This document shows positions 17,937-41,160 of a stretch of DNA of 64,000 nucleotides, in pieces; positions within the stretch are counted from its first letter, which is position 1; each line of letters opens with the position of its first letter. Source of the stretch: Ceratodon purpureus. Lineage: Eukaryota; Streptophyta; Bryopsida; Pseudoditrichales; Ditrichaceae. A model generated the notes under the pieces. It saw nothing but the letters and a program-made list of their open reading frames with translations. It did no database searches and was not told the DNA's origin. The stretch lies in contig CM026426.1 in the NCBI GenBank assembly GCA_014871385.1, positions 68,099,692-68,163,691 of the forward strand. The letters run 5' to 3'. The position numbers and the translations under genes are program-made.

Positions 17937-19150
17937 CCTACTTCACTTGCGGAGATGATCAAAATGAGTTCAATATCACCTACGTGATATGAACCAGAGC
18001 TGTCCAAAATATTCGCAGCACCATATGTTGCTTCTCCCTCCCCGCATACAATTGGAATACTTACAGGATTATTGAACCCAAATCCAACCAATATTGTTCA
18101 GTTCCAAATCCAAACAGATTCCTTCGCATTTTCACTGATTTCCCATCTGCATATCGTATCAGGAACAGGATAAACTACCCTTCTCTTCGAAACGAAACCT
18201 GCAACGTCGACGAATCTCGACGCAGCTCGCAATGCAGTCAACCATGTGCTCCCCTCAGTATTAACAAAGTGTAACCCCAGAAAATGAAACCTAATATTCG
18301 CCTTCCCATTCTTGCCAACACTTCACTTCCCAAAAGATATCAAAACTCCTTGAACTCTAGTCACACATATTCGAAACGAGCTCAGAGACTGCTCAAAAAC
18401 GCCAGTCTCTGGTTAATCTTCACAGCTTAAAATTCACCCAAATCACCACACACTGCGTCCTGACATAGCTGACACTGCAGCAAACGCGTTGATGCTTTCC
18501 TCCTGAAGCTCCCCGTGAAAAAACATGAGCTCCACCTGAGACAAAGCAACAAAACCCACCTTTCAAAACCCTAAGAAACAGTTCAGTCCCAAACCACGAA
18601 ATTCCACACTGCAAACACAAATTCACTACACATGTGTAACGCATTGTACAATCCCTCCCATATTCCCAGTTCTACAAACACGTCTCTCCCACAATCAACA
18701 AACTCCTCAACAAAAAAATTCAAACAAAAAAAAACAGCTTAACCCCAAAAGAACCGAAACCCACCAAAAATTCTCAAAAAAATCCCTACTCCAAAAACTG
18801 AAATACCATCAAAACAAAGCTTTTCTTCACAACAGCATAGTCACTACGGTTTTCTCACACCACCCAACTACACAAAATGAGCTGCAAACAATCCTCCAGC
18901 AGACGATTCCACATGATCTGCCTCATAGATGACCCATTTCCAGGCTAAAAAACGCAAAAACCAACTGAAAAAAGTACCGTAAATTGCAGGAAAAGTGTTT
19001 TCCGGGGTCTCACACCCAGATTATAACCAAATCTCCCCGCCGGAGATCGTTTCCAGAGCGCAAACTGTGAGCTATCCGAGTTCTCGCCGAGGCGACCATC
19101 AACAAGTGCCGTCTTTTCTTTACTCCGCCCCCTCTTTCCATATTGACGAC
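17937..19150 (-). promoter_or_regulatory. 5' leader and promoter region of the apyrase gene
   Basis: Non-coding, CA- and A-rich sequence upstream of the apyrase ATG. On the minus strand AATCCTGTAAGTATTCC near 18065 is a strong donor-like site and TCACGTAG near 17975 a possible acceptor, so a short 5' UTR intron is possible. The transcription start probably lies near 19000-19100, but no clear TATA box could be assigned. Confidence 0.35.
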
Positions 19151-20541: not shown

Positions 20542-21117
20542 GGGACGTTTTTCATTGCATTAGAGATTATTTTGGGTCTGGGAGAGGCCCTCAACATGTG
20601 CCTCGGTTGTGCCCTTGGTACAGTGCCCGGAGTGAAGTAACCGGTTCAGCAGGTAATCACCATTGGTGCCAGCCTTCGGTTCCAGCAGCATGTTTGCAGG
20701 GTTCGGCCAATGGCTGCAAGAGGTTGAGTTTCCCATTGTGACCTAGGTGGAACTCACACATGTTTGGACTGTACTCAATCGGATTTATTTACTAGAGAGA
20801 TTTGGACATCTCTGTACCATGGTGGGCTGATTATACTCGAGTGACTATCCTTGAAGTCGCTTGAGTTTTCATATTATAAGATTCTATTTCTGTATTTTAT
20901 GTGGACGGGGTAGTGGAGGGTTAGCCATGTCAGCTAAAACAGTGACATAATGGCGCGGGAAAATGGATGCCGAGGGTAATTGGTTCGCACACAGTCAGCT
21001 TCGGAGATTTGGAGTAGTCTTTTGGGCCAGAATATTTGGCTTCCTCGGTGGTCTGTTGCGGCAGCAGAGTAGCGCTTCCTGCTGTATTACTTGGTTTGTG
21101 ATACGGGTATATAATCG
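20542..21117. other. LINE tail and upstream region of the 446-codon gene
   Basis: No supported coding frame. TTACTTGGTTTGTGATACGGGTATATAATCG just before 21118 contains TATATAA, a possible TATA box, but it lies so close to the ATG that the start would leave almost no leader. Confidence 0.35.
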
Positions 21118-22458
21118 ATGGCAAATAGTTGGCGTCCACGGGCAGGGGTGCAATCAATAGTCGTCTACAACGACCAGGACGTTGGTGGACAGTGGATCCC
21201 GTTGCGACTGGAGGTTGGCAGCTGGGTGACGCTGAAGCCTGCGTCCACTGGGCCGTGGGCTCGAGACTCACGGAGACAAGGAGAGGAGAGTAACGCAGGT
21301 GCTTACAAGGCACGGATCGTTGAATTCCAGTGGAGTTACAGCACTGTTAGAGGCAAGGTTGTGATGAAACTCGAGTCCGTGTTAGTGAGGCATGCATATG
21401 AGCGTAGGCAAATCCATTTGGACCCTGTAGTTTCAGCCACCGAGCCTAGAGCCTGCAACTATCTCTATGCATCATACTGGGAGGATTGGGTCCCGCCCAC
21501 GTCGATTTTAGATGTCATCCTTGTGCTGCATCATGAGGTTGGTGAGGCGACTCGTAATGGCCGAGGTTACAAGGATTTGAGGGCTGATGGAACTTTTTAC
21601 TTGAGGGCTGTGTATGTGCCGCGGTCTGGCAATCAGCTCTATGGCACTCTAGAGGCACTTCCCCTTCCAGAGCTAACGGACTCAGAGTGGCCCCTCCCTG
21701 ACATGCACACAAGTGAGTTTTTTAGAAGAAAGCTTGCTGTCGACATTGCTGCCGCAATGAAAGGCTCCACAGGCAGTAGGGCTGTTCATGTGCACTGGTT
21801 CATGCCGGTGCATGTGATGGTGGATTTGTTTGCCTGTGCGGATAGTGTACGGAAAACCAGATCCATGTACATTTTTAACAACCCTTCAGAGGAACTTTTG
21901 AGTAGCTTGATGTCACTGGGTTGGGATGTCAAGTATGAGAAGGGGCGGGATGTGTTGAAGTGTGTAGTGAGTCATGACAGCATTAAGTTTAGATATCATT
22001 TGGGTCGGCAAATGCTTTATGTGAACTACCAGTACCTGCGTTATAGATGTGTGGAGGGAGACGCTTGGACTGCCATTGATCAAGCAGTTGCTGTGGAGAT
22101 GGTTAGGACCTCTGTTATTTTGGGAGAGTCTTTGTTGCCGGCCATTGAAGTGGGCAGAACGTGGCCTGTGTCGCATCTTCGGAACGAGATTTCGATCATC
22201 CTCTCCAGAGACTCACTTCCAGAAGAGTATGACCTAGTCATACAGCGGCCAGGCCAGCCTGATACCAAGGTACAATTGCAAGTTCAGTTGGTTGCTAATG
22301 GACATTGCAATATTAATCAAAGACTGTATGTGCAAAAAGCTCAGCTGAATTTAATTTTGCACGCCAATGTTGTGCAGATAAATGGTCGACACGAGAAGAT
22401 TACACTCATCGGTGCGGTCCTGGCCGATCATGGTCAATTCAAAATGGTTGTAGTGTAG
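21118..22458 (+). CDS. Uncharacterised 446-residue protein
   Basis: Intact single-exon ORF of 446 codons from ATG 21118, the longest undamaged frame between 18 and 64 kb. I do not recognise the family. Residues about 25-65 (LEVGSWVTLKP, then YKARIVEFQW) resemble the start of a small beta-barrel of the BAH or Tudor kind, but the similarity is weak. The middle has YLYASYWEDWVPPTSILDVI and a conserved-looking VHVHWFMPVHVMVDLFACAD block; the C-terminus appears beta-rich (VQLQVQLVANGHC, LNLILHANVVQING). No signal peptide, transmembrane segment or zinc motif is visible. Its intactness among dead transposons suggests either a lineage-specific host gene or a recently active mobile-element gene. It follows a LINE relic and precedes AT-rich repeats, so context gives no function. 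Confidence 0.7.
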   Translation: MANSWRPRAGVQSIVVYNDQDVGGQWIPLRLEVGSWVTLKPASTGPWARDSRRQGEESNAGAYKARIVEFQWSYSTVRGKVVMKLESVLVRHAYERRQIHLDPVVSATEPRACNYLYASYWEDWVPPTSILDVILVLHHEVGEATRNGRGYKDLRADGTFYLRAVYVPRSGNQLYGTLEALPLPELTDSEWPLPDMHTSEFFRRKLAVDIAAAMKGSTGSRAVHVHWFMPVHVMVDLFACADSVRKTRSMYIFNNPSEELLSSLMSLGWDVKYEKGRDVLKCVVSHDSIKFRYHLGRQMLYVNYQYLRYRCVEGDAWTAIDQAVAVEMVRTSVILGESLLPAIEVGRTWPVSHLRNEISIILSRDSLPEEYDLVIQRPGQPDTKVQLQVQLVANGHCNINQRLYVQKAQLNLILHANVVQINGRHEKITLIGAVLADHGQFKMVVV

Positions 22459-23394
22459 ATAGCCTAGTACAGAGAATTTCAAGCATGCTATAGAAAATGA
22501 AGCAGTGTGAGACACTGAGAACCTGTTGCTGTGTGTATCTAAACATTGTGCACTTGCTTTTAACCATTTTGTTGTGCTTGTAAATGTTGAAGTTGCTTTA
22601 TGCCAAAGCTAAAACGGTGGTTCACCATTTTTTAGTGATATTTGATATGCGTTTTGAACCATGCTTATTACATGTTTTGATTAAGATGAAAGTTTGATTA
22701 GCTTAGAATCTGATTTGGTTAGTTTGCAAAATTTAGTGAAGTGTGACTAGCTTAGACTGGAGTAAATGAACCAATTCAAGATTTTCCATTTTTTTAATAT
22801 TTTAATTTATTTAACCACTACCATCTTTAAAACTTGAATACACTGTGAATTCTTCACAGCATAGGATTTGATTCAAATAGAGCCAAAGTAATCTACTTCT
22901 AATTATTCAAACCATACCTTCCGACTCTTAGAAATTAGTGGAGGCACAAAGTTTGAAGGTCAAATCTATCCGACTGAACTGAACCATTACGGAAATTAAA
23001 TGAGTGTGGGGAAAATCTCCATCCCCTAAATACCATCTTAGTAGTTACATTCGTCAAGTGTGAAAGAATCTCCACAGTGGAGACTAAAGGGAAACATCCA
23101 AAGCCTCCTTGCTGAAGCAAATGGGAAATAAATGAAAAAGAATCTATAATTTTCAGATTCATTAATTTGGAAGTTTAATCTTACCAAAGCATTGTTGTTG
23201 TCATAAAAGGTTAATAATGATGATGGAGGTTTGCACTTGACCCTTTGACCCTTTAACGCTCCAGCGTCCAAATTCTCGACGTTGGACGACTTTCAGCGAA
23301 GCTATTTTTGAGGGGTTGGATGCTTTTCGTCTATTTTGATTTTTTCTTGAATTCTTGTGTTAGTTACTACCATTTGCACGGTGTGGATCTTCAA
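22459..23394. other. 3' region and intergenic, no gene seen
   Basis: T-rich sequence after the 446-codon ORF, probably including its 3' UTR, then AT-rich sequence. Minus-strand ORFs near 22935-23271 are short and have no recognisable product. Confidence 0.4.
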
Positions 23395-24330
23395 GATAAG
23401 ATCTTGTAATTTTTTGAAAAATCATAGAATTGATTTATGTCAAGTTTCATCCCTGGTTCAAAAAGTGAGATCTTAAATATGATTTTCCAGAACAAGTGGA
23501 ATTAAATAATGGAAATTATACCATCACATAGTTCATGTTAATCCAAATTCATAACAATTATTATCAATAGGAAATTATTCTTTCAAAATTCGTCAAAATT
23601 TGAGATTTTGGAATTTTTCAAAAATAATTTGGCTCAAAAATTGAAGACTTATAAAGGCACCTAACCACCGTTCAGATTTTTCTAAAACCAAATATACGTG
23701 ACGTCATGCATGTTTTACTATATCATGGTTTTTGGATGTGCTTCTAGAAAACAATTTTTATGAGAGCCAAAAAAAGGAATGAGTCTCTCAAATTTTCCAT
23801 GGGGGTACTCAACCTAATTAAACTTTGGAATATAAAGATACTTCTGGAAAGAACCTTGGATACTCACTTGCTTAAAGTTAGTTTCAGAATTATAGAAGAC
23901 TATGCTAATGGTTGAACAAAATTCTAAGTATTGAAAAAATGGTGATAGTAAAATCTTCATAAACAGTAAAAGAACACCTTAGTGAAAATAACTTATAAAA
24001 GAAGAAAAAATTAGAAAATAAAAATTATGCACGTTCAACTGCGCAGCTGAAAGCGTGGTGGGGTGGGTGTCGGAGGGAGGATTCGAACTCGGCACCAGCA
24101 CCCTGGGGCCGCCACATCAGTTCGAACCTGAAGCCTCGGAACACCAAGCCACCAAGGCTTTGACTAGTATGTAAAATTTCTGAGCATACTTATATCGAAT
24201 TTGGGATCCTAGAAATTAAAAAAATTAATAAATGAAGAATTCCTAATTGCTTTAACTGGACGCCAAGTTAGGCAAGGGAGTTTGTAACAGATTCCAAGCA
24301 AATCAGGCTTCAAGGTTAATCTTACGTCTG
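23395..24330 (+). repeat. Dispersed repeat family R1, copy 1 (plus)
   Basis: About 0.9 kb that recurs inverted at 34985-35935 nearly base for base, and whose 3' part recurs at 29960-30745 (plus) and 40201-40790 (minus). Landmarks are TGACGTCATGCATGTTTTAC, TCTGAACGGTGGTTAGG (minus strand: CCTAACCACCGTTCAGA), and a GC-richer block near 24065-24160 with GGATTCGAACTC and CAGTTCGAACC, which look like tRNA-type B boxes. It ends around GCCAAGTTAGGCAAGGGAG. Non-coding; possibly SINE-derived in part. Confidence 0.85.
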
Positions 24331-24620: not shown

Positions 24621-25018
24621 GACGTCTAATCTCAGCGGCTACATGACTACAATGTGGGTGTCCTCGAATGCATTGTCTCCCAACTCAATCAGTCCAGCAC
24701 CACTAACACGTCCAATCTCATTAACTTGAGCATGCATTGTCTCCAAGGATTGAACAAAGCAGACCCTGACTGTCCCATCTAGATTTTGAGAAGGTGGAGA
24801 ACCATGCATGGCACTCCACGCACAGCTTTTGTGCCTGCTCGAGCTGTTTGGGTGCAGCTGCAGCAAAACAATGCAGTTGAGCCTGTTGAGGTGATTTCCT
24901 ACTGTCTCTATTGTGGAGTTACAGGCTTGATCTTTTGTGTTGCGAATTTCCTTTGCTTGATTCTAAGTTTCCTAATTCGTCTATTCTGCTGTACATACAG
25001 GTTGGAGAGAACGTCAAC

Positions 25019-26512
25019 ATGGTGTTTTAGAGGAAGCGGAAGGTGTCTAGGGGCGGCAACACTCCAAACAGTGCTCGAGGTAGGAGGCATTGATCATCCA
25101 TCGATTATAGCGAGGAAGGGGAAGGATCTGGGTCACATTCCTTGCAAGGTGAAGGTGATTTGACCGAAGTGGAGCTTGCATACGAGATTGGTAACTCAGA
25201 GTGGGATGCACCATTCGAGCTTCGTGGTATTCCAGTAGGGTTGCAGTCTTCCATGGTTGCAGTAGCTCCTGCTCTTGCGGGCCGTGAGGCAGAGTACAAG
25301 GATGAGTTCTTCACCAACCATGTGGGCTTGTGCGACCGGGGTGCTCTGGTAGATGATGTGGGGAAGGTCTACCCGCAAGTGTTGGAGGGTGACATCAAGG
25401 AGATCTGGAGGCCGGGGATGTAGCAGAATGGGTACGAGCTTGTCAACTGCACCAGCAAGATCCAGGCTCGGCAGTTTTCCAAGCTTTGTTATGAAGTTTA
25501 TGGACATCGCCCGGATAATGCTTATTTTGCAATGCGGTTCTTGAAGGCCGCTACCGCGATGTTTGTGCATGGCTTGGAGGTGAATTGGGTGTCTGAAGCA
25601 CAAGGGCGTCGATGCAGACGTATAGCAACCGCGACGAAGAATCAATACAAGCTTGGTCCAGTTGGTCTCCGGTGTCAAGTTGAGGGCTTATGCGGTATCA
25701 TCAAGGATCTCGCCCGTGGACAACCGTTGACTCCTGGTTTACCAGAGTCGGTGACTGCAGCAGAGGGGGCGTTGACTGCGGCTACAGCAGCTGCGGATGC
25801 CGCGGCTGAGGTACTGCGAGGACTTCAGAAGGAGAGGAACTTGGCGGTGGCGGTGCTGGAGAGGTGCACGGAGGAGGACGTGGCGGAGGCTGAATCCGAG
25901 AGTAACGCGGCCTTGGTGGAGCAGAGAAGAGTTTTCCTCACTGGGACACCTTCCGAATACAAGGCCCAGGTTGAAGTGGTGCGGGCAAGTTCTGAGAAGG
26001 TGGCCAAGCTGCAGGAGGAGTTGATGACCGCAAGATTTGCCATGCGAAGTCTTGCCGAGGAAAACGGTCCACTGTCCATGGCCGTCGCGGATCAGAAGAA
26101 GGCCATGGCCGTGCGTGTTGAAGCCGAGGCAGCTCTCAAGAAGGCCAAACAGGAGACCCTGATCTTGCGGCCGCGAGCGGTTTTTGAATATCCTCCACGA
26201 CAATCTGTACCGGCGATTGATGGAGGGATGGGCTCACTGAACGAGTGGTGCCCCGTGTGTTCTAAAGGGTTTGTGTCTCGTGCAACAATTCTTGGTTCTT
26301 GTGGTTGCCTCTTCCACCACGTATGCGTGGCAGAGATGATCGAGTCGAGCCATTACCGTTGCCCCTACTGCGAGTGCGAGCTTGATCCAGCGTGGGTCAA
26401 ACAGTGGGATGGGAAGCTGAATGCTGACCAGGATCGGCAGGTGGGAGTTACGGTGGAGATGGTTAGGCGCCTCGGGGCTGCGTACCACCACGGGGGCCGA
26501 AATGTTGAGTGA
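25019..26512 (+). pseudogene. RING/coiled-coil family, copy 1
   Basis: One frame from ATG 25019 to the stop at 26512 is interrupted by TAG 25028-25030, TGA 25091-25093 and TAG 25421-25423, with no shift. Order: basic/acidic low-complexity N-terminus; unrecognised domain (VELAYEIGNSEWDAPFEL, YKDEFFTNHVGLCDRG, GHRPDNAYFAMRFLKA); a long Ala/Glu/Arg-rich coiled coil (about 25740-26160); then LRPRAVFEYPPRQS and a C3HC4-like RING (CPVC, CGCLFHHVC, CPYC; about 26250-26380). RING proteins usually act as ubiquitin ligases, so a ligase with coiled-coil dimerisation is the likely ancestor, but substrate and pathway are unknown. The part from 25424 to 26512 is intact, and ATG 25532 gives 326 codons, so a shortened protein is conceivable. 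Two paralogues lie at 32154-34101 and 37389-39053. Confidence 0.75.
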
Positions 26513-28107
26513 CATGTGCTGAAGCATCGTTGTTGTGGCCATGGCATTGTAGATAGGTTTATGCTTGTCTGAATATGTGAGTCGAGGATATACTTTTTGG
26601 GTCGGATTCCACTGAACAGTATGGGCCGTGATTCTTCTTAGATCAATTTTGAGACATTGTTTTTTCGGCACATTTGGTTAAACCTACGGATGGGATTCAA
26701 CGTCTGATTTAGAAGTGAACTGCTGCAATCTCTGATTGCATTCCTTCGCTGATTTCTCTGAATCCACGGAAATCTTCAAGACTGTATTCATCTCAAAATA
26801 TATTTCATATGTGTGAATGTATCTCATACTTTGTTACATTCACAGAAACCGCTTAATGCGAAGAGTTTGTTGCATTCGAAGATTCTGTCGGTGTGAATGA
26901 TTCTCTGAGTGTGAATGAACCCGGAGTTTACATTGTAAGAGTGGAATTGATTCTTGATCTGAACTTTGTATGAACCTATGATTTTGATTCTGCCGGTATA
27001 TTTGGTTGGGCGCGTGATTCTAATTTAACCGTTATTGATTAATTTGTTAGAATCGGAAAATTGGATTTGTGGTGCGATTGTTACTGTACCAGAAGCTCAC
27101 TGAAGCAATCCACTGTTCACACTGTTGTTGCGAAATGGCATACTGTAGTCAATTTCCGGGTTTATTTGGGGGGTAAGAAGTCCTTGGCATAACAATTTAA
27201 TTAAACCACTAGGCTGTTCATTTCATATTTCTTTCAAATTTAAGATATGCAACGTTGGAGATATCCGACATGATTAGAGCTCGAAAATTGTGCTGCTCAA
27301 TTCTTGAAATTGCTTCCTACCTATCATTAATTGCTGAAAGATTTATTTCCCCATTCTTTTCTAGTTTCCCAGTGTTACAGTGTCCCCCCTCGTTTGTTCC
27401 TTTCTAAAATGTTATTCCTTGTTTCAAAAATGAAGCTCTCAGATATTTAACTCAAACCGTATTAATCAATTCGAATGATCTCGGAGTCTTTGTTTAGAAT
27501 TAGTACCTCGTAAAGAAAGGTCTTTGTAGGCATAAATGTGTCTTACAGTCTTACTCAATTCTGAAATGCAGAAGCTTGTTCTGACTTGTATATGACAATG
27601 CGATTCAATTAAAAATATGTGCGGAATATGAGCTCAGAGTTGTATACGATAATGCAAATAAATAAAATAAATTTTATCTAACATGCATTGACTACAGCAA
27701 CAACATGACTGTGTACCCACCTATATTACTATTTGTAGCAGTATTTTACTCCCTTTGTTTCACAAAAAAAACATAATTTCCACAAATACACGTGTTTCAC
27801 AAAGAACCCATGGATTCATTATTACCATGGAAGTAATCTTTGAAGAAGAAGGGAAAAAAAACATGAAGAAAATAAAGAAAGATAATGGGGAATGGGAGGT
27901 ACTGTGTACAGGAAGGGAATAGAGAAAAAAGAATAATAAAAATAAATAAAATATGTTCTATGGCTATATATTTTATTTCTTTATTTATTTATTTATTTAT
28001 TTTTAACCTGGTGCAGATTCCATGTCATGAAGAAGAGGGAAAAAAACTAGGACACTAAATAACCAGAAGTAGAAAAGGAAGACTAGAAAAGCCAAAATCC
28101 CTTCTTT
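26513..28107. other. Non-coding AT-rich region
   Basis: No gene seen. It includes the short GTGTGAATG series near 26810-26920 (TGTGAATGTATCTC, TGTGAATGATTCTC, TGTGAATGAACC), and a TTTA microsatellite at about 27969-28003. Confidence 0.5.
27969..28003. repeat. (TTTA)n microsatellite
   Basis: Tandem TTTA units, about eight copies with one interruption, in an AT-rich stretch. Confidence 0.85.
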
Positions 28108-28252
28108 AATTTATAATTATTTTTAATATGTTGGTAATTCCATGTCATGCCGTCTCCAGAACAAGGGAGAGGCAAAGGGATGGTCTAAGAAAGAATAACA
28201 AAATGAAGCCAAGGTGGGTCATAACAAAATCCATAATTATTGCAATTTAAAA
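28108..28252 (+). repeat. Repeat R3, copy 1
   Basis: About 145 bp (ATTTTTAATATGTTGGTAAT, CCGTCTCCAGAACAAGGGAG, AAGGTGGGTCATAACAAAAT) repeated at 29462-29602 with few differences. Confidence 0.85.
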
Positions 28253-28754
28253 GAAACTTGAGAGTGAACTAATCTCTTGGTGGATGGATGAAAAACAATA
28301 TGAATGCAAAATAAAGTCTCAGTGAAGCAAGTGAAGCTGAATAACAATATCCATATCTATTGAAATTTGAAGGAAACATGAACTTGTCCCAATTCTTGTG
28401 TAGATGGCAGAAAATGGATGGATGAAATATGGATGTATGGGAAGTGGATGGATGCAACTTCTCTAAGTGCATTGGAAATGTGCGTAAGAGGTTACAAATT
28501 TATTAGCCAAAAATAGGGGGAACTAATTACAGTGGGTTCTCTACTGGTTTCCTCTTTTTGTTTATTACGGGGTTTCATACAAGGGTTGCTTTCAAATGGA
28601 GAGTTTCTCACTGCTGCTCAAATACCATGTGAGAATGGTGTAAGAATATAAAATCTTAATAAAAACTAAGGAGAAAAGAAAGTAATGAACCCTTTCTTGA
28701 AGTTGTGTACAGAAGACTTGGGGAAGAGGATTAGAAAATAGTGGGTATGGGGCT
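28253..28754. other. Non-coding, GATGGATG-rich
   Basis: No gene. Contains several GGATGGATG and ATGGATGAAA words (28280-28460), the complement of the CATCCATCC words at 35940-36370. Confidence 0.4.
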
Positions 28755-29460
28755 GAAGCGACGGTCACAGCTTCAGAAGTAGCGGACATGGGGCCGAAGG
28801 CTTTGGTCATGGGGCTCACAGCATGTCACGGTCATAGGCCTAGGACGACTGACTTGGTTCAAAGCAACCGTCATGGGGTCAATATTGTAAATTTGTAATC
28901 TATTTCCAGAAGTATATAACTGCTTCAACTTGAAAACCATAAAGCATTACAAATATATGTTCATATACTACGTATAATTTAACACTAACGTAGATTGAAT
29001 ATTAAATCAGTTCTAAGTATACATTTAAATGCAGCAAAGTTTACTTGCAAATGTTTATAGTAGAGCGTCCAATAATGGCGCAAATTTCAGCCTGGGGAAT
29101 CTACTGCGAAATTAGCGGTGCAAATATTTTTCATGCATGGAGAAACTAATTAAAAAGTTGGAGCAAGTGGAATCATCATTTTTGGATTCTTCTACAATTA
29201 GTTATGAATTTTGAAGATGGATTTATAGGTGTTTCTAAAATGGCGCACACCCTATAATGTTTTCCATCAGTACATGGTACTGTTGGGTGGGGAAGCTATT
29301 ATGTACCTCTGATAGAAGATGACTAGAGCTCCATTTTTGGCACTGCGCCATTTTTGGACGCTCTACCATAGCAGATTTGCACCCGTTTTGTGATGGTGTT
29401 TGGAGCCACATGGATGAACGGCTTCTGGGGCGTTGCAATGTATTATTTTGATTCTTTATA
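28755..29460 (+). repeat. Repeat R2, copy 2, split by a nested element
   Basis: Matches 24335-24620 in order: AGAAGTAGCGGACATGGG, TAGATTGAATATTAAATCAG, and after the nested element GCCACATGGATGAACGGC and GCAATGTATTATTTTGATTC. The match breaks at 29057 and resumes at 29369. Confidence 0.8.
29058..29368. mobile_element. Tc1/mariner-type MITE, 311 bp, TA duplication
   Basis: Left end TAGTAGAGCGTCCAATAATG and right end, minus strand, TGGTAGAGCGTCCAAAAATG form inverted repeats of about 25 bp with two mismatches. TA flanks both sides (29056-29057 and 29369-29370). The homologous R2 copy at 24485 lacks the insertion and reads ATATTCAGCGG where this copy reads ATGTTTA, element, GCAGATTTG. No coding capacity. 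TA duplication and structure fit Tc1/mariner or pogo-related MITEs. Confidence 0.88.
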
Positions 29461-29461
29461 A

Positions 29462-29602
29462 TCAAATTATTTTTAATATGTTGGTAATTCCATGTCATCC
29501 CGTCTCCAGAACAAGGGAGAGGCAAAGGGATGGCCTAAGAAAGAATAACAAAATGAAGCCAGGGTGGGTCATAACAAAATCCATACTTATTGCAATTTAA
29601 CC
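29462..29602 (+). repeat. Repeat R3, copy 2
   Basis: Close copy of 28108-28252, in the same orientation, ending in TATTGCAATTTAA where R1 copy 2 begins. Confidence 0.85.
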
Positions 29603-30745
29603 CCTAAGTGCCCAGGAGAGCCAAAACAACTTTTTGCTGTTTCGGTCAGTTTAGAGAAAGGGGTTCAAATTAATATTTTCGCCTAATATTTTTACTGGAT
29701 GCTCCATGTACTGCAAAGTGTATGTAGTAAAATTTGCAAATTGAAATTCCAATTTTAAGACCTTCATCTAAAAATTTTAGATTTCAAGTCCAAAACAAAC
29801 AGCTTAAAATTAGGCTTTTTTATAATAAATTTTTTTTAAAATATGTTCATAACCAAACCACCACTCAAATTCCAAAGATATCCAAGTCAAAAAATATACC
29901 AATTCCACAAGTGCAGCCTCTAAAATTTACGAAGTCAAGCTTCAATGTTTTCAGTAATTTTTTAATTACTTCTTTCGAAATTCATCAAGATTTGAGATTT
30001 TGGAATTTTTCAAAAATAATTTGGCTCAAAAATTGAAGACTTATAAAGGCACCTAACCACCGTTCAGATTTTTCTAAAACCAAATATACGTGACGTCATG
30101 CATGTTTTACTATATCATGGTTTTTGGATGTGCTTCTAGAAAACAATTTTTATGAGAGCCAAAAAAAGGAATGAGTCTCTCAAATTTTCCATGGGGGTAC
30201 TCAACCTAATTAAACTTTGGAATATAAAGATACTTCTAGAAAGAACCTTGGATACTCACTTGCTTAAAGTTAGTTTCAGAATTATAGAAGACTATGCTAA
30301 TGGTTGAACAAAATTCTAAGTATTGAAAAAATGGTGATAGTAAAATCTTCATATACAGTAAAAGAACACCTTAGTGAAAATAATTTATAAAAGAAGAAAA
30401 TTTTTATAAAAGAAAAAAAATTGCACTATCAACTGCGCATCGGAAATCGGAAAGCGTGGTGTTCTAGTGTCGGGGGGTGAATTTGAACTCGGCACCAGCA
30501 CCCTGGGGCTGCCACGTCAATTCGAATCCGTAGCCTCGGAACACCGGTCCACCCCGGCTTTGACGAATTATGGTGTATTCTGAGCATACTTATATCAAGT
30601 CTGAGATCCTAAAAATTAAAAAAAAAAATTAAAAAGGAAAAATTCTCAATTGCTTTAAGTGGACGCCAAATTAGGCAAGGGCGTTAAAACAGATTCCAAA
30701 CAAATCAGGCTTCAAGGTTAATCCTACGTCTGCAATCCCGGGTCA
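29603..30745 (+). repeat. Dispersed repeat family R1, copy 2 (plus, alternative 5' half)
   Basis: Begins AACCCCTAAGTGCCCAGGAG. The first 360 bp match the complement of 40790-41160; the last 780 bp match copies 1 and 3. The B-box-like block is at 30480-30545. The end, GGTTAATCCTACGTCTGC, together with the beginning may give an 8-bp inverted end (GATTAACC and GGTTAATC, seen more clearly in the copy ending at 41160). Confidence 0.85.
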
Positions 30746-31084
30746 CGTCTTAGACTATTATCACATGTAATATATTGTATGATTTTGTGGCTTGTAATCT
30801 GTGATGAATATATATCACATGCAGTGTTTTTTATTTGTACATACCCGGTGGTTTCGTTTATGATAGCAGCTTTAAGAGTAGTGATGGTTTTTATCCAGTC
30901 GATGTTTGTGAATCGTGAAACATTTTATAACACATTTCTAAAATCAACGATGGATTAGGACCTCGAAATGGAAAATCTTCGATAATCAACGAAAAATCAA
31001 AAGACGGGCTCGAAGATGAGGAGAATTGTGAAACATGGCAGAAATAAAATTGGAATCACTATGCATATTCTATGGAGTCTTTTG
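30746..31084. other. Non-coding
   Basis: Unique-looking AT-rich spacer, no gene or repeat identified. Confidence 0.4.
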
Positions 31085-31624
31085 CCTCAGGAGGCAACTC
31101 ACTTATTATGGGCACGGCTGTGTGGGATAATAAGTCAATTTAGACTTCTTATTCCGTTTTTTATAACAAATAGTATGCTTCCTTTGACGGAATCAAAACT
31201 CATAATAAATACAATCTTATTAAATGCTTTATTGTAACTTGCACGATAAAAAATTTAAGAACTAAACAAACTGTAGCATACAAATACATCATAGAAATTC
31301 TAAGTAGGATATATAAATGTGTGTGAAGAACCTTATTATGCATTTATTATGCCCTTATTGTAATTTTGTTTTATTATGTTTATAATAAAATTTATAATAT
31401 GTCTTAAAATATGCATAATAAATCGTCTTATTTTACATTTATTATATATCATATCCAATTATAGATAAACAATTTTGAGACACACAATACATATTCTGAA
31501 AGCTTTCAACGTCTATTTTCTATTGAACTATACATCATCATAATCATAATTGATAAAGTCATAGTATTTTGTAAAATAAGATATAATAAATCTTCTTATA
31601 ATAACTCAAAGTTGCCTCCCCGGG
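31085..31624. mobile_element. TIR element, 540 bp, perfect 8-bp TSD
   Basis: The octamer GTCTTTTG lies directly on both sides (31077-31084 and 31625-31632). The ends are imperfect inverted repeats: CCTCAGGAGGCAACT on the left and CCCGGGGAGGCAACT read from the right (12 of 15). The interior is very AT-rich with many TTATTAT words and no ORF. An 8-bp duplication suggests a hAT-like insertion mechanism, although the ends lack the usual CAGGG start. Confidence 0.75.
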
Positions 31625-31632
31625 GTCTTTTG

Positions 31633-32153
31633 TGCCTACTTATACATATTTGCAGCATATATAGGCGGTGGTAGAGTTGCTCTTAATTACTCAAAAAAAT
31701 TTGGGAAAAAATATTCCATTTATAGTACTGACATGGTCTTCCACAAAAAGATTGAACAACACAACATCATCTTCCAGTCTTGAATGCTCATATGCATGGG
31801 TAAACGAGTGAACACACTACATATGCATAACATAATTTTAGGGGTGAAAGGTTTTAAGGTGAAAGAAACATCATTCTATTTAATGAAACACATGCATAGA
31901 TGATAGGGGGAATAGACAGCCCTGAAGGATTTACATGCGCACATTAATAAAACAAAAATATATTATAATATAGCCTGGTCAAGAAACATGTCGTTACAGT
32001 GTAAAATGTCGTCACACTTCTGCATGGCCATCGGAATGTCAGTGGATTTTTGATACAAGTATATCTGCATCACCGGAGCACATATCTACCACATGGCATT
32101 GGAGACGCAAAATGCGTGTTTCTGCATGTTCGGTACACTACGAGGTCCCCAAT
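31633..32153. other. Non-coding, 3' flank of RING copy 2
   Basis: No gene seen. It may include the 3' UTR of the leftward RING-family copy. Confidence 0.4.
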
Positions 32154-34101
32154 CTAGATTCCCTGCAGCAGCAAGCTCTCAGCCTCTAGTGCTGCTTCAG
32201 CTCCGATTGCACGTATTTCTTCACGCTCTGCTGTGGAGACCGGATCCAGTTCTGGCTCGCATGTTGAGTCTGGATGTGCACGTTTGGGAAGAGGCTCCTC
32301 AAAGCATAAACTGTCCACTTCAGGGAGACGTTTCCCCACAGCAAGTTTCTGAGTCTCTTCTTGGATCAAAGAATTCAGCGCGTCCTCCACCTTCACGCGC
32401 GCACTTACTGCATCCAGAGGCTTCAACCAACCCGCTTCGTCCATGCCGGTTCTGCAAGCAGAGATTGCGCTACGCATGTCGTCGTCGGTACTAAATCCCC
32501 ACTGGCCTCTCCATAGCCCACTAGGTGCATGACTGCAAAACGGACAACGCGGATCCTTCGACAGGACTACTCTGAACATGCAAAAAGGATGCAGCAAGCA
32601 TCCACACGGAAGAGAAACAAAAGCATTGTCCACCCAAAATCGACCGCAGAGAACACATGGAACAACTGGTTCTACTTTCACCAACTTCATGCATGCTACA
32701 GGGAGGCGTGCCAGGAGTTGCTTCGGACAAATGCTGCTGCTGTCGACGACGACCACATCGATGTCTGCGGTGATGACCCCCACCTTGTCTTGCAGCTCCT
32801 TCGTGGTTCGCCGTAGAAGCTGAATGCGATCTTGCAGCTCCGCAATCTGTTTTTTGAACATTAGCGATGGACTATGAGATGGTGTTAGCGAGTGCTGTCT
32901 TTGCTCGCATATCTTCTTCCAGTTGAGAACTCTCCTCTGATAGCGGCGCGCAATGCTTTTTAGTGGCTCGTAACGACACCATGACCTCCCAGTTGGAATC
33001 CTCCGAAATAGAAAGTTCTGTCTTCTTGGCGCCCAGAAGTTCAAGTTCCTTTTCTGCATCCGCCAGGTGCTTGATCACGGTGAATAGCTTTTTCTCTGTC
33101 TTCCGTCTCTTCTCTTTTAGTGCCTGGAGCTGGTCCGGTCTTGCGTTCGGCGAAGGCGCACTTGCAACCGCTTCCACAATGGCACACAGTGGAGATGTCC
33201 GTGGAGCGCTGGATCGCTGCTGCCGCACCGCCTTGCTACCACCGGGTGAACCTTGGAGGATTGCTCTCGTTGCCTCTGCACGCACCTCTTTCCGTGCAGG
33301 AGGACTACTTTCCGTGGGATCCGCAGACCCTTGCTGCCTTGCCGGAAAATCGGATGGCTTGATTGGCAAATTCGCGCGCCTCAACTGTGATGTCGCATCC
33401 TCCCGTTCTGCATAAGCGGTCCGAAGATAATGCTAGAACAAGTTTATCATAGCTTGGATCTCCTCCCTCAAACATGGCGGCGTGAGTTTCTGTGGATTGA
33501 CAATCGGATTTTGCACCCGCTTCTTCGCCAAGTCTGCTGCATAATCAGCCCAGTCCACTTGCGTCTGTCGTTGATAGAATAGGACAAGACCTCGAATGAA
33601 AGCTGTGCCAAATTCGCCATTGTCAGGATGCGTTCCACCATACACTCTTTGGTACATGTGCAAAGCGTTTCTTGCTGCGTCACGATCTGTCATCAATCGC
33701 AAGGAGTGACGGTTTCCATGCTTGTTAAGAGGATACGTAGCAAGCAAATCATCAAGTGGCACACCATGCTCGTCCTTCATCAAACTTCCGAATCGAACCC
33801 CTTCAGCACAGAGACCACCGACTTTCTCAAAAAAGTGCTTGTTGTATTTTGCATTCTCAGCTCCCAAGAGGAAGGGTGCCTGCTTCAACAACTCTAGAGT
33901 CATAGTCTGCGGAAGCATCCGAAGATCAAAAGGCTCCCGCCAGATGGTAATGTGACTGGAGTGAATATCCTCCACGGCCTTCGTTGGCCGCAATGGCCGC
34001 TGCAACTGTTGGAAAACTTCGTCGTCGGTATCAGACGATGACTCAGGAATAGCACGTCGCTTGCCAGCGGCCTTCTCCTTCCCGCTCATCGTGCGGCTCA
34101 T
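32154..34101 (-). pseudogene. RING/coiled-coil family, copy 2
   Basis: Read leftwards from ATG 34101 (or 34089). The N-terminus is Lys/Ser/Asp-rich, then the family domain follows (FDLRMLPQTM, APFLLGAENAKYNKHFFEKV, YGGTHPDNGEFGTAFIRGL). A TAG at 33433-33435 is the only break before a Pro/Arg-rich linker and a coiled coil (KRRKTEKKLFTVIKHLADAE). A one-base frame change near 32870-32890 leads into KKQIAELQDRIQLLRR and a C3HC4-like RING (CVLC, CGCLLHPFC, CPFC; about 32520-32670), followed by a 120-residue C-terminal extension absent from the other copies. It is more diverged than copies 1 and 3 are from each other. Function, if any, is probably ubiquitin ligation, by inference from the RING only. 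The frame change could be a small intron I did not resolve. Confidence 0.7.
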
Positions 34102-34984
34102 TCCAAACGTAGAGAGTGTGTTCTGCAAGACTGCAACGAATACGTACCCCTCCCACGAGCTAGAATGTGCAGAAAACAACTTTACAATCGTGAACAAAGA
34201 CTGCGATTGACAAACAATGCTTTAGCAAGATCTGAATATCATGCGTAACTCGCTATGGCTTCATGCGGTAGAACTCAGTTTCATAGATGCCACTTTCACT
34301 GAACGAAGGGATGCTTGAATTCGATCAAGCTAATTGTAAGGGTGCCCTGCTCACCACTGCTGGATGCAGTGATACTGGTTTCCATTTTTAAATATTATAG
34401 ATCCACCGCCTCGGATGTCTACAAGTCATGATACTTTGGACATTGTCCTCTGGGTCTTCCCTTATTTTATGCCCTGGTTGTCATGTCTTTGATGAATTTC
34501 AGAAGTCCTGGAGTGTGGATTATATTATAGAGTTTGTATTATCTGGATACGCACCACGAATAAGACAGGGTCATGGAGATTTGGAAAAAGTAGCAAATCT
34601 GAAGAACTCCAATAGCTACAAGGACATTAGTTGCATCTGTCGGAACGTGAGATGCACTGGCTGCGGCACTCCATGACGCACAATAGTCAACTGGGGGTGA
34701 TAACTTACAAGCACAGTGTACTCAAACTAGGGACCCTGACGGCGCTAATGAACAAGAAGAGTGCATGAGTACGCATGGTAGTGAACTGCGCATCACACGT
34801 GAAGGGGTATAAATCAAAACGGAGGACAACTAGTACAGTGTACACACACAAGTGTATGAGAAGATATATACATGCATGCATATTTCTCAACAACCACCTG
34901 TATATGCATTTGTATTTTTCAGTAAATTATGTTTTCTACAATTGTTATTTCCTCAAAAAGTCTTCTTTCATTTCTTGGCCTCTC
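34102..34984. other. Non-coding, upstream of RING copy 2
   Basis: Contains the probable promoter of the leftward RING copy and AT-rich spacer. No gene recognised. Confidence 0.4.
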
Positions 34985-35935
34985 TAAATTGAATTTAATA
35001 GAACACTAGTACATCTTAATACAAGCTTGGAATCTGTTATAAACTCCCTTGCCTAATTTGGCGTCCACTTAAAGCTATTAAGAATTTTGCATAACATAAT
35101 ATTTTTAATTTTGAGGATCTCAGATGTGATATAAGTATGCTCAGAAATTTTACATACCTCGTCAAAGCCTTGGTGGCTTGGTGTTCCGAGGCTTCAGGTT
35201 CAAACTGATGTGGCGGCTCCAGGGTGCTGGTGCCGAATTCGAATCCTCCCTCCGACACCCACCCCACCACGCTTTCAGCTGCGCAGTTGAACGTGCATAA
35301 TTTTTATTTTCTAATTTTTTCTTCTTTTATAAGTTATTTTCACTAAGGTGTTCTTTTACTGTATATGAAGATTTTACTATCACCATTTTTTCAATACTTA
35401 GAATTATGTTCAACCATTAGCATAGTCTCATATAATTCTGAAACTAACTTAAGCAACTGAGTATCCAAGGTTCTTTCCAGAAGTATCTTTATATTCCAAA
35501 GTTTAATTAGGTTGAGTACCCCAATGGAAAATTTGAGAGACTCATTCCTTTTTTTGGCTCTCATAAAAATTGTTTTCTAGAAGCACATCCAAAAACCATG
35601 ATATAGTAAAACATGCATGACGTCACGTATATTTGGTTTTAGAAAAATCTGAACGGTGGTTAGGTGCCTTTATAAGTCTTCAATTTTTGAGCCAAATTAT
35701 TTTTGAAAAATTCCAAAATCTCAAATTTTGACGAATTTTGAAAGAATAATTTCCTATTGATAATAATTGTTATAAATTTAGATTAACATGAACTATGTGA
35801 TGGTATAATTTCCATTATTTAATTCCACTTGTTCTGGAAAATCATATTTAAGATCTCACTTTTTGAACCAGGGATGAAACTTGACATAAATCAAATCTAT
35901 GATTTTTCGAAAAATCACAAGATCTTATCTGCAGC
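34985..35935 (-). repeat. Dispersed repeat family R1, copy 3 (minus)
   Basis: Inverted copy of 23395-24330, highly similar along its whole length. It includes the B-box-like motifs as GAATTCGAATCC and GGTTCAAACTG near 35205-35245. Coding predictions inside it are artefacts of the repeat. Confidence 0.88.
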
Positions 35936-36370
35936 TTTTCATCCCTCCATTTATAATCCATCCATTTATCATCGGGATATTGCTTGATTACTTCACTAAG
36001 AAGTTTCTTTTTAATTTCAACAATTAAAGATATTGCTTTTCACCTTGCCTTGCCTCTATTTTTTTATGTTATTCTATTTTATTTTTTAAATTTAATTTTT
36101 TATTTCATTTAGGTTTATTTATGTGCAAACTATTTGAGGGTCAAGAGTAGTTCCCTGTGATGTGAATACGAAACTCTATTTTTCATCCCTTCGTTTATCA
36201 TCCACCCATTTTTCATCCTTCCATTGATCATCCATCCATTTATCATCCCTCCATTCTTCTTAGAATTATATCGAGTTAAGTTCTTCTTGTCACAATTTGA
36301 GAGCCAGGGTTGGTATTGTTTGAGAGTGAACCTGAAACTTGATTTTTCATCCATCCATTTATCATCCATA
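35936..36370. repeat. CATCCATTTATCATC imperfect minisatellite
   Basis: Two clusters of CATCC, CATCCATTTATCATC and TTTTTCATCC words (35938-35970 and 36180-36370) separated by AT-rich sequence, units about 15-17 bp and imperfect. Complementary words occur at 28280-28460. Confidence 0.65.
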
Positions 36371-37388
36371 TTTAAAAGATTGCTTCACCTTGCCATTTCT
36401 TTCAAATTAGCGACCCTCTTGGATGGAAATGTTTTCGTACATGATAATTTTAAATTGGATGAAAACCGTCACAAATAATTATGGATGTGCTTATATTGGG
36501 CCTAGTAATTTGGACGTGCTATCCTTCATTTTCCTTAATTTGAAACAATTTGCTATGCATGACAATAATTGTGCTGCATTAGAGAAATCAGATAATGATG
36601 CGAATCCAAAAATCATTAAATATTTTTGAGGCCTCCCTGATACGATTTTCTAAGAGTTCCACTGACATTACATTGCGCAACCTTCATTTTTCCCAAGACC
36701 CAGTTTATTATGTCAATTAAGGATTTTATTCATGATTATAAAATATTTTCATATGAGTTATGGCATGGCTACAGGCACTCCATATTACTTATATAGGCAG
36801 TACCATATCATTTTCTGGTCTTCCCACAGCGATTCAAGAATGCGCATATTTGAATATGCGGATTTTTTTCGTAAGTGACTTAGGATTTTAAATAAATTGT
36901 ATTATCTAAGATTTCAGTGCTGTTGTAACACATGATAACAAGTATGTAGTATCTGTGTCACGTCACATCCAACCTCATGCTTTTTAAATTACATTTGACG
37001 GCGGAGGCCGTGCGTAACTCACACTGCTGAAGTCATTGTTGAATGATAAACTAGTCCGATGTAGCAAAGCGTCGATGTCAATGGGAGGCGAGGTGACCGT
37101 AACTGTACAGGTGTGATTATTTTTCTTATCAGCCGCCTCTTCCCTGTCCAAGTAACCGTAATTAGAATCATGACTTCGAAATCCTTGCCCACTAACAGTG
37201 TACTTGGAGCTCTACAATGCCTGAATACTCTTTTGCCTGGGCGACGTTTCACAGCCCACCTTGCTATATGTAGTTTGTGTCTTCTCGCTTTGTGCTCATG
37301 CTTTCGTAGTTGTTGTAACATGATCACAGTGTAGGTCCGTCTCTGTTATTTAATCTCCACCGCATAGGTTAGACACTATCACGTTGCC
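36371..37388. other. Non-coding, upstream of RING copy 3
   Basis: AT-rich to about 36960, then more balanced sequence that probably contains the promoter or first non-coding exon of RING copy 3. No other gene is seen. Confidence 0.4.
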
Positions 37389-39053
37389 ATGGGAAACGGG
37401 AAGGGGTCAGAGAAGAAGCACAAGAAACGAAGGTCCGAAGCCACCGAAGGTCATAGAAGTCCGCAACCTCGCAAGTCACGTAAGTATGTCCAGAAGGAAC
37501 TCCCACAGTCCACCAGCGGAGATAGAGAAACGACTCCAGAGGGCCCACATGTCGAGTTAGTCGAAGTCCCTCCTGCGTTTGAGGTGGGGAACTCCGAGTT
37601 TGATGCAGCATTCGACCTTGAAGCAATCCCATTGGCGCTGCGTGAACGAATGGTGGCAGCTGCACCGATGTTGCTGGGCCGCAATGCAGAATATGACAAC
37701 ATGTTTTTCCATGACAAGGTGGGGTTTTGTGACAGGGGCCCGACAGTAGATGATGTTTCCAAGGTTTACCCACATATTCTGGAGTCCAACATCAAGAAGG
37801 TATGGCGCCCGGGTTCGCAGTTGAATTGATTTGAGATTGCAAATTGCTTGGACAAGGAGCAGGCTCAGCTTTTCTCGCAGCACAACTACCGTGTGTATGG
37901 CAACTGTCCTGACAATGCCTACTTTGCCATGCGTTTTCTCAAGGCTGCTTATGCAACATTTGTGCATGGCTTGGACGTGAACTGGGTGGCGGAGGCCACG
38001 GTGCGCCGAAGCAAGCGCTTCGCAACCGCATTGAAGAACCCAAAGAAGCTGGGACCAGTGGCGTTGCGCCGGCAGGTGGAAGGTCTCTTCTAGCTCATGG
38101 CTTCAGTGGCATCTGGCACACCAGAGCGCCAGATAATGCCACGAAGTGCAGATCGTGCACTCAGAGAAGTAGTGGCTGCCAGAGCAACCGCAACTCTAGC
38201 ACAGATAGCGTTGGAAACGCTTCAGCGGGATCACGACTCGGCATTGGGCATTGTGAATGCCTTTACAGATGCAGAGTATAGTCGGCTGGAGTTGGAATGC
38301 AATGCGGCGAACACGAAGCTCTCGCGTTTGTTCCGGGAGGGGACAGCAACAGAATAGAAGGTTCACGCGGAAATGGCGCGGCTTCTTTCAGCGAGGCTCT
38401 CGTCGATGCAAGAGGAGCTGATGATTGCGCGATCTCGAATTTTAGAGCTCAAGTCGGGTCCCCTTCAAGATGCCACTGCCGCTCACAATCAAGCCCTTGC
38501 TGACGTCGCTCCCGCGGAGGCGAGCCTGCTCAAGAGTGAACAGGAGTATTTGATCCTGCGCCCACGCTCCGTTTTTGTGTACCCGAGCGCATACTCCGTA
38601 CCTGCGTTAGTATACCGTATGACTCATATCTGCTCAATCTGCAACAAAGGTTTTGTCTCCAATGCAGCAATACTCGGTTCTTGCGGATGCCTCTTCCACA
38701 ATGTGTGTGTGGCACAACTGATTGACTCTAACCTCTATCAATGCCCCATGTGTGGCGACCTCGACCCAGCGTGGGTAGCTCAATTCGACGGCAAACTTGA
38801 CGACCAGCAAGAGGCGTGGGTCGAAGACACAATGCAGAATCTTAGGAATGTTGTGGGAGCGCGGAATGGTGCTGCAGTCACCATGCATACGGCCCTGAAC
38901 CTGAATTCAGAATGTCATGACTTCTTACTGTCGCAGGAAGGCAATGCATTGCCTAGCGAGGAAGCCTTGGCCCAGACTCCTGTATCATGTTCTTCAGATA
39001 CGCACAAACTGTTCGAGCGATCACGTGGAGATCCTCCTTCTGCACAACGTTGA
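37389..39053 (+). pseudogene. RING/coiled-coil family, copy 3
   Basis: One unshifted frame from ATG 37389 to the stop at 39053 contains TGA 37827-37829, TAG 38091-38093 and TAG 38355-38357. Domain order equals copy 1: basic N-terminus (GSEKKHKKRRSEA), family domain (FEVGNSEFDAAFDLEAIPLA, YDNMFFHDKVGFCDRG, GNCPDNAYFAMRFLKAAYAT), coiled coil (38100-38520), LRPRSVFVYPSAYS and RING (CSIC, CGCLFHNVC, CPMC; about 38630-38755). It is clearly the closest relative of copy 1. Where copy 1 has stop 25421, this copy has CAG. Where this copy has stop 38355, copy 1 has TAC. The intact parts on both sides of each stop argue that the ancestor was a full-length protein. A spliced product avoiding the stops is possible but no good splice pairs were seen. 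Confidence 0.75.
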
Positions 39054-39939: not shown

Positions 39940-40200
39940 TAAATCCCTTGCCTTATTTGGCGTCTAGTTAAAGCGATTAAGAATTTTTCATTTTTAATTT
40001 TTTTTTAATTTTTAGAATCTCAGATTCGATATAACTATGCTCAGAACATACACCAATCCATCAAAGCCTTGCTGGCTTGATGTTTTGGGGCCTCAGAGTC
40101 GAATTGACGTGGCGGCCCCAAGATATTGGTGCAGGGTTCGAATCCACTCTCCGACACCCATCCCACCACGCTTTCCACTGCGCAATGGATAGCGCACATT
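39940..40200 (-). repeat. R1 repeat, partial copy 4a (minus)
   Basis: Only the last 250 bp of R1 (TTGCCTTATTTGGCGTC through the B-box-like block ending near TGCGCAATGGATAGCG), immediately before another copy in the same orientation. This gives a tandem of two R1 3' ends. Confidence 0.75.
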
Positions 40201-41160
40201 TTTTTTATTTTTTAATTTTTTTAATTTTGAGGATCTCAGATTTGATATAAGTATGCTCAGAAATTTTACATACCTCGTCAAAGCCTTGGTGGCTTGGTGT
40301 TCCGAGGCTTCAGGTTCAAACTGACGTGGCAGCCTCAGGGTGCTGGTGCCCGGTTCGAATCCTCCTTCCGACACCCACCCTACCATGCTTTCCGCTGCGC
40401 AGTTGAACGTGCAAAATTTTTTTATTTTTATTTTTTCTTCTTTTAGAAGTTATTTTCACTAAGGTGTTCTTTTACTGTATATGAAGATTTTACTATCACC
40501 ATTTTCTCAATACTTAGAATTATGTTCAACCATTAGCATAGTCTCATATAATTCTGAAACTAAATTAAGCAACTGAGTATCCAAGGTTCTTTCCAGAAGT
40601 ATATAATCCAAAGTCTAATTGAGTTGAGTACCCCTATGGAAAATTTGAGAGACTCATTCCTTTTTTTGGCTCTCATAAAAATTGTTTTCTAGAAGCACAT
40701 CTAAAAACCTTGATATAGTAAAACATGCATGACGTCACGTATATCTGAAAAAAATCCTAAATCTCAAATTTTGACAATTTTCGGAGAGGAGAAAATGTAA
40801 TGTCACAAAAAAATTTGAAGCTTCTTCATGTACTTTTGGAGGCTGTCCTTCTAAAATTGGTAAACTTTTTGACTTGGGTCACTATGGTTTTTGAGTAGTG
40901 ATTTGGTTATGAACATATTTCAATTTTTTTTTATAAAAATGACCTAATTTTAGACTGCCTGTTCTGGACTTGAAACCCAAAATTTCTACTTAGAGGTTTT
41001 AAAATTGGAATTTGACTTTGAAAATTTTTCCACGTACACATTGCGGTAAAGGGTGTATCTGGTAAAAAATTTAGGAAAAAATATTACTTTTAACGTCTTC
41101 ATCTAGGCTGCCCAAAACAGCATAAAGCCATTTCGGCTTTCCTGGGCACTTACGGGTTAA
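40201..41160 (-). repeat. R1 repeat, copy 4b (minus, alternative 5' half)
   Basis: Matches R1 from the B-box-like block (GGTTCGAATCCTCC near 40354) through TGACGTCACGTATA, then switches to the alternative 5' half shared with 29603-29960, ending at CCTGGGCACTTACGGGTTAA near 41160. Confidence 0.82.

Follow-up and report, generated by a model that had tools for sequence, protein, structure and literature searches.

Three genes of one RING and coiled-coil family lie within 14 kb in the moss Ceratodon purpureus, and the question raised by this locus is how they came to lie together. A first interpretation made from the DNA letters only (the sequence-only reading) had offered two origins, namely a host ubiquitin-ligase family expanding by duplication, or a gene that travels with an unknown mobile unit. 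The window, meaning the whole stretch of DNA analysed, is 64,000 nucleotides long and occupies positions 68099692-68163691 of contig CM026426.1, hereafter C6 (other contigs are labelled in the same way). The assembly, GCA_014871385.1, amounts to 362.5 Mb in 151 contigs, with C6 contributing 110.5 Mb, or 30.5%. Ceratodon purpureus has a genome of about 360 Mb, in which the U and V chromosomes each exceed 100 Mb and total about 30% (PMC8000587). Read from these matching sizes, C6 is probably a sex chromosome. In our assessment, with a probability of about 0.75, the three genes, called R1, R2 and R3, belong as accessory genes to a giant cut-and-paste transposon, whose transposase bears the motifs of the RAG1-like CMCT (CACTA-Mirage-Chapaev-Transib) clade, and whose copy in the window is decaying.

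A transposon around the three genes

R1 (25019-26512, plus strand), R2 (32154-34101, minus strand) and R3 (37389-39053, plus strand) were found where the sequence-only reading had placed them. All three lie inside one DNA transposon, which occupies 20558-45721 of the window (25,164 bp, no strand assigned) and has both ends outside the range of 24900-39053 considered in that reading. A 601-bp R1 probe gave at least 40 scored genome matches, 38 once R1 and R3 of the window are set aside, and 13 other places matched at 97% or more. Three of these loci were fetched with their flanks. Their main pieces are 96.5-97.8% similar to the transposon, and in 3/3 loci the similarity begins at 20557/20558 and ends at 45721/45722, while the DNA outside differs. 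With the same probe, R1-type and R3-type matches lie 12.5-14.7 kb apart at 7 places, the window included.

The ends of the transposon are inverted repeats of about 37 bp, reading CATTAGAG...CTCTAATG. The left terminal inverted repeat (TIR) lies at 20558-20594 on the plus strand, measures 37 bp and shows 92% complementarity (E 2e-11) to the right TIR, which lies at 45684-45721 on the minus strand. A 31-base end pattern, allowing up to 3 mismatches, found 40 matches in the genome, 35 of them on C6, and the reversed control pattern found 0. Comparison of the copy flanks also revealed perfect 3-bp target duplications (TCA, ATG and TTC) in 3 of 13 end pairs, where the chance of three or more is about 0.001, and 2-bp duplications in 2 further pairs. 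The 13 are those for which both end sequences were available, which excludes, for example, C6:53.45 M, C6:85.40 M and C7:7.53 M; one counted pair is doubtful, its ends lying 186 kb apart (C6:13.51-13.70 M).

The three sister copies differ from one another by only 0.45-1.0% mismatches, the closest pair by 0.45% over 25.9 kb, so the family has moved recently; a sister differs from the window copy by 2.2%. Relative to the sister copy u48, the window has three stops in R1, two stops and a frame break in R2, and three stops in R3, and the earlier description of the genes as nicked by stops was accurate. Its expectation of intact relatives is likewise borne out, since 3/3 sisters have open frames for R1 (497 amino acids, aa) and R3 (554 aa), and 2/3 for R2 (649 aa). 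The unit is filled by five genes, A, R1, R2, R3 and the transposase gene T. Gene A and the frames of T exons 2 and 3 are open in the window, and T exon 1 is broken. The family has members that moved recently, and the window copy is one in decay.

These observations bear directly on the two origins first offered. Growth of a host ubiquitin-ligase family by ordinary local duplication would suit three paralogues within 14 kb, but the three genes and the DNA that separates them occur as one set at other loci, at about 97% identity and inside one TIR pair, and we regard such growth as very improbable. Host tandem duplication as an account of the cluster was ruled out by this TIR-bounded recurrence of the whole set. 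The other option, a mobile-unit gene, held good in the form of the 25.2-kb TIR unit, with the amendment that, given its CMCT motifs, the unit is probably not wholly unknown.

Transposase T and its company

The transposase gene lies at 41946-45293 on the minus strand. In 3/3 sisters it encodes a protein of 1023 aa from three exons, with GT-AG introns inferred from the sequence. An open frame at 42637-43770 (minus strand) holds exon 2, with the first and second catalytic aspartates and the C(2)C motif, and has at least 109 scored matches at 58-100% identity. Exon 3 (41946-42506, minus strand), recognised through a RAG1 alignment and through relatives, holds the H(4)H motif and the catalytic glutamate. 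In the spliced T of u48 these residues are D491, D588, C608-x2-C611, H838-x4-H843 and E863, the catalytic ones being assigned by motif, and C(2)C and H(4)H both lie between D588 and E863.

RAG1 is the enzyme that rearranges antibody genes. The spacings in T are 97 from D to D, 20 from D to C, 3 from C to C, 5 from H to H and 20 from H to E, and those for the same steps in RAG1, by its residue numbers, are 108, 19, 3, 5 and 20. When T was compared by phmmer with 177,635 PDB sequences, RAG1 chains were the only matches at E up to 10: a 451-aa query gave three at E 0.4-0.7, and a 414-aa query four at E 0.8-1.3. The alignment covers the stretch from H-x4-H to E, and its T side reads ITHYIHVLVKHGPWFVETYGSLSVWSCQGMEKSH. 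No Pfam family matched exons 2 and 3 at E 5, Transposase_21 (PF02992) included. At E 1 two T frames of the window showed no RING in Pfam and gave weak, mixed matches, many of them to coiled coils. Viral contigs scanned with T, and also with the alignment of the R proteins, held no relatives.

By the CMCT motif definition of PMC12730594, these features of T suggest membership of the CMCT clade, where it is filed by motif. The 5'-CA..TG-3' termini of that clade are present. On its target duplications of 2-5 bp the end pairs are divided, with 3 bp in 3 of 13, 2 bp in 2 more and none in the other 8, that of the window included. The element resembles EnSpm/CACTA in its CA..TG termini, in the 3-bp duplications of some copies and in C(2)C with H(3-4)H. 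It differs from EnSpm/CACTA proper, which has CAC..GTG termini where the element has CATTAG; moreover, Transposase_21 is recognised in the CACTA piece at window position 54534, while T exons 2 and 3 have no Pfam match at E 5. McDaniel and Carey, whom we take to be authors of the Ceratodon purpureus genome, are also among the authors of a Repbase lineage named Lanisha. Lanisha (Maumus, McDaniel and Carey, Repbase Reports 2020, 20:2521, cited in PMC12730594) is an EnSpm-similar cut-and-paste lineage that shows C(2)C and H(3-4)H motifs and is assigned to the CMCT clade. Likened through this description in a citing paper, the element probably is Lanisha. PlavakaB also has 2- or 3-bp duplications and termini that begin with CAT (5'-CATCA..TGATG-3'; PMC12730594), but it is fungal, and the likeness is one of description.

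A more distant lineage of T exon 3 was also observed, with at least 40 copies on 12 contigs, at 45-48% identity to the exon of the window and many with equal score (C1:1917980, C10:13393889 and C24:35287 are examples). It is possibly a smaller relative without R genes.

The association of R genes with T extends well beyond the window. At least 178 genome matches were found for the R2 N-domain, 109 for T exon 2, 95 for A, 113 for the C-terminal part of R1 and 150 for the N-terminal part of R3. These copy numbers are lower bounds, since the match lists hold the best scored candidates only (for the R2 N-domain, the best 150 of 178 matches from 1480 first-look candidates), and the counts that follow apply to the matches listed. 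When merged, the R matches represent at least 359 R genes, 263 of them on C6. In 90/109 cases an R gene is present on the element side (from 32 kb on that side of T to 2 kb on the other); there are two or more in 69, three or more in 28 and none listed in 19. On the opposite side (4-36 kb, a control that is not an exact mirror) an R gene occurs in 5/109. Of the 109 T matches, 91 lie within 30 kb of an R gene; random placement gave 6.9 on average and 14 at most, in a rough model in which contig ends were set at the highest match coordinate, C6 excepted. The opposite-side count is free of this simplification. T lineages only 58-70% identical to that of the window also adjoin R genes, with other orders and orientations, and at C2 15.82-15.84 M matches of the R3, R1, A, R2 and T types follow in succession. 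R1, R2 and R3 reside in a TIR-bounded unit, recur with it, and adjoin T in several diverged lineages. Since this adjacency reaches the lineages of 58-70% identity, this group of transposons has probably carried the R set for a long time.

Nature and role of the R proteins

All three R proteins have the same layout, with a charged N-terminus, an N-domain, a coiled-coil-like middle and a C-terminal RING. Their homology is not confined to the RING and coiled coil, for in tblastn against the window the N-terminal part of R2 matches that of R1 at E 8e-14 and that of R3 at E 3e-13, and the R2 RING matches R1 at E 6e-8. R1 and R3 are the closest (tblastn E 1e-96, 49% identity), and R1 and R2 are 25% identical in an alignment of sister-copy proteins. 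The N-termini are basic, with 9-13 lysines and arginines against 5-8 aspartates and glutamates in the first 45 residues. The N-domain, for which the sequence-only reading knew no named family, matches no Pfam family at cut-off, where only R2 gave sub-threshold matches (DUF4129 at E 0.007 over the charged N-terminus, for example), and an N-domain profile found no solved structure in the PDB at E up to 10.

The RING ligands read C-x2-C-x13-C-x-C-x2-H-x2-C-x11-C-x2-C, and all eight are invariant in R1, R2 and R3, as a RING requires. Their order is C4HC3 with RING-H2-like spacing, which corrects the earlier description of the domain as C3HC4-like. Pfam finds zf-RING_2 below its cut-off (E 2e-4 to 0.03). 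When the three proteins were combined into a profile, 55 PDB sequences matched at E up to 1, the best being PIRH2 (E 4e-4). In 54 the match covers the C-terminal zinc-finger stretch, mostly of RING ubiquitin ligases (E3s), and the remaining one is the coiled coil of liprin-alpha. Active E3 RINGs usually have a hydrophobic residue between the first two cysteines and a proline in the last cysteine pair, and both are present in R1, R2 and R3.

In the reading we favour, the R proteins are probably E3 ligases, and their targets would be silencing factors or the transposase. They might instead be structural or DNA-binding subunits of the transposition complex, with the RING serving as a zinc fold for dimerisation and having no ligase activity. 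A hetero-oligomer would accord with three paralogues kept together, each with a coiled-coil-like middle, and the C4HC3 order is non-standard for a RING, but the E3-typical hydrophobic residue and proline occur in all three proteins, the top PDB matches are E3 RINGs, and we consider the subunit role unlikely, though worth serious attention.

If the R proteins are ligases, a sequence of steps can be proposed. The CATTAG ends would be the substrate of T. Basic N-termini would take the R proteins into the nucleus, the coiled coil would let them oligomerise, and the N-domain would hold a partner or DNA. The RING would then recruit an E2 (ubiquitin-conjugating enzyme) and bring about ubiquitylation of the transposase itself or of a host factor for silencing or repair, which may favour expression or transposition of the element. 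A bolder proposal, that an ancient RAG1-like plant transposon lineage bears a multi-paralogue RING ligase module in trans, retained in diverged lineages of the element and directed against silencing or controlling the transposase, and thus represents a second union of a RAG1-type recombinase with a RING, is put forward tentatively, and we give it somewhat less than even odds.

Selection was assessed from the proportions of nonsynonymous (pN) and synonymous (pS) differences. Between R1 and R3, pS is 0.72, near saturation, and pN is 0.36 overall, with 0.26 in the N-domain, 0.43 in the middle and 0.22 in the RING. Because pN is lowest in the N-domain and the RING at a near-saturated pS, the comparison indicates that selection keeps these two parts under protein-level constraint. 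Long open frames are also found among the listed matches, reaching 738 aa for the R2 type and commonly about 400-580 aa for the R1/R3 type. One R1-type match, C7:7694564-7695634, lies in an open frame reported as 3767 aa, far the longest among those listed.

Several observations weigh against parts of this account. The similarity of T to RAG1 is, taken alone, without significance, and an AlphaFold model of T exon 2 alone was unusable, with a mean predicted local distance difference test score (pLDDT) of 33. Structure prediction for the N-domain (three window rows) did give a model, but not a usable fold (mean pLDDT 37). Eight of the 13 end pairs, that of the window included, have neither a 2-bp nor a 3-bp duplication. 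Recombination between elements may explain such losses, because those at C6:43.49 M and C6:48.05 M have identical right flanks over 1034 bp and left flanks that are not identical. R2 has diverged too far from R1 (pN 0.56) and from R3 (pN 0.59), at pS 0.77, for constraint to be clearly visible. Pooled over young copies, pN/pS is 0.62 for R1 (8 copies), 0.79 for R2 (4) and 0.64 for R3 (4); with four copies each it is 0.39 for A and 0.28, 0.34 and 0.80 for the frames of T exons 1, 2 and 3. The counts are small and include broken copies, and pairwise ratios of nonsynonymous to synonymous rates (dN/dS) are too noisy to serve as proof of selection. Since the R values exceed those of A and of T exons 1 and 2, recent constraint on R is weak or masked by decay. 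In addition, for 108 of the 359 R genes neither a T nor an A match is listed at a distance of up to 30 kb; of the 40 copies listed for the distant T lineage, just one has a listed R2 match that near, so R is perhaps dispensable for some relatives.

Two further explanations draw on these same points. Host RING genes might have been captured as passengers with no role for the element, as large DNA transposons elsewhere have picked up host genes (PMC6431247), and both the R genes without a listed neighbour and the high pN/pS of young copies would fit. Passengers would hardly be expected, however, to accompany T two or more at a time in 69/109 cases, to adjoin T at only 58-70% identity, or to persist as long open frames, and this explanation appears improbable. 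Equally improbable, in our estimate, is that the R proteins repress the movement of their own element as a form of copy-number control. The high pN/pS of young copies would agree with this, and inactivation of R in the window copy would be tolerated, but R1, R2 and R3 are all open in 2/3 young sister copies. The reading as accessory genes of the transposon is the one we retain.

Related systems, other features and significance

A known parallel for the pairing of transposase and RING is Chapaev and RAG1 (Transib superfamily), in which a RAG1-like transposase is likewise associated with a RING finger, and the RING of RAG1 has ubiquitin ligase activity (PMC4411706). In RAG1 and two Chapaev subgroups the RING lies in the transposase (PMC4411706), whereas the moss element has it on three separate proteins with another N-domain. 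Enlarged elements of the CACTA group with extra open reading frames (ORFs) are exemplified by the giant EnSpm of Chondrus crispus, with 16-20 kb and 4-5 ORFs (PMC6431247), against 25-28 kb and three RING paralogues here; the two are likened by description. The same holds for Burro, the planarian giant retrotransposons, which have a RING-type motif (AIR1) and ubiquitination-related domains (PMC6431247) but are long terminal repeat retrotransposons with no RAG1-like transposase. The anti-silencing proteins of VANDAL elements belong to the MuDR superfamily, and their likeness to the R proteins is by analogy only.

Within the element, gene A (21118-22458, plus strand) is an open frame of 446 aa with no known domain, for which a search against the PDB gave nothing credible. 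Four internal repeats of about 0.9-1.2 kb, up to 99% alike, occupy the gaps between the five genes: 23394-24299 between A and R1 and 29597-30700 between R1 and R2, both on the plus strand, and 35025-35930 between R2 and R3 and 39990-41160 between R3 and T, both on the minus strand. Each of the 58 listed genome matches of the first repeat has an A, T or R2 match from the lists no more than 20 kb away. A 259-bp unit at 35936-36236 has about one copy in the window and forms arrays of several copies in 2/3 sisters (C6:48.04 M and C6:60.78 M). Element variants of 20 kb, with no R1 match among those listed, occur at C6:43468076-43488286 and C6:64735009-64755040. No RNA family of Rfam turned up in the element at E 1 or, with gathering scores as threshold, anywhere in the window, and a search of NCBIfam gave nothing.

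Elsewhere in the window, 211-1860 holds hAT transposase frames (DUF659, Dimer_Tnp_hAT) with one stop between them, and 54534-57513 is the conventional CACTA piece (Transposase_21, DUF4218). An ORF at 5197-6003 is weakly similar to protein kinases (E 4e-5, below cut-off). Ordinary plant-type genes encode an AP2-domain protein (12011-13291) and a GDA1/CD39 apyrase (16425-17942).

According to Kapitonov and Koonin in 2015, RING finger and Chapa domain occur in no known transposable elements besides the Chapaev group (PMC4411706), although a review attributes a RING-type motif to the planarian retrotransposon Burro (PMC6431247). A literature search of titles and abstract openings found no description of the RING genes of this element. 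The family points to one source of bulk on a very large chromosome, probably a sex chromosome, as C6 holds 35/40 end-pattern matches and 263/359 listed R genes. Should the R proteins prove to be ligases, a RAG1-like transposase would be paired with separate ligases in giant moss transposons, and the role of ubiquitylation in transposition and silencing would become testable in plants.

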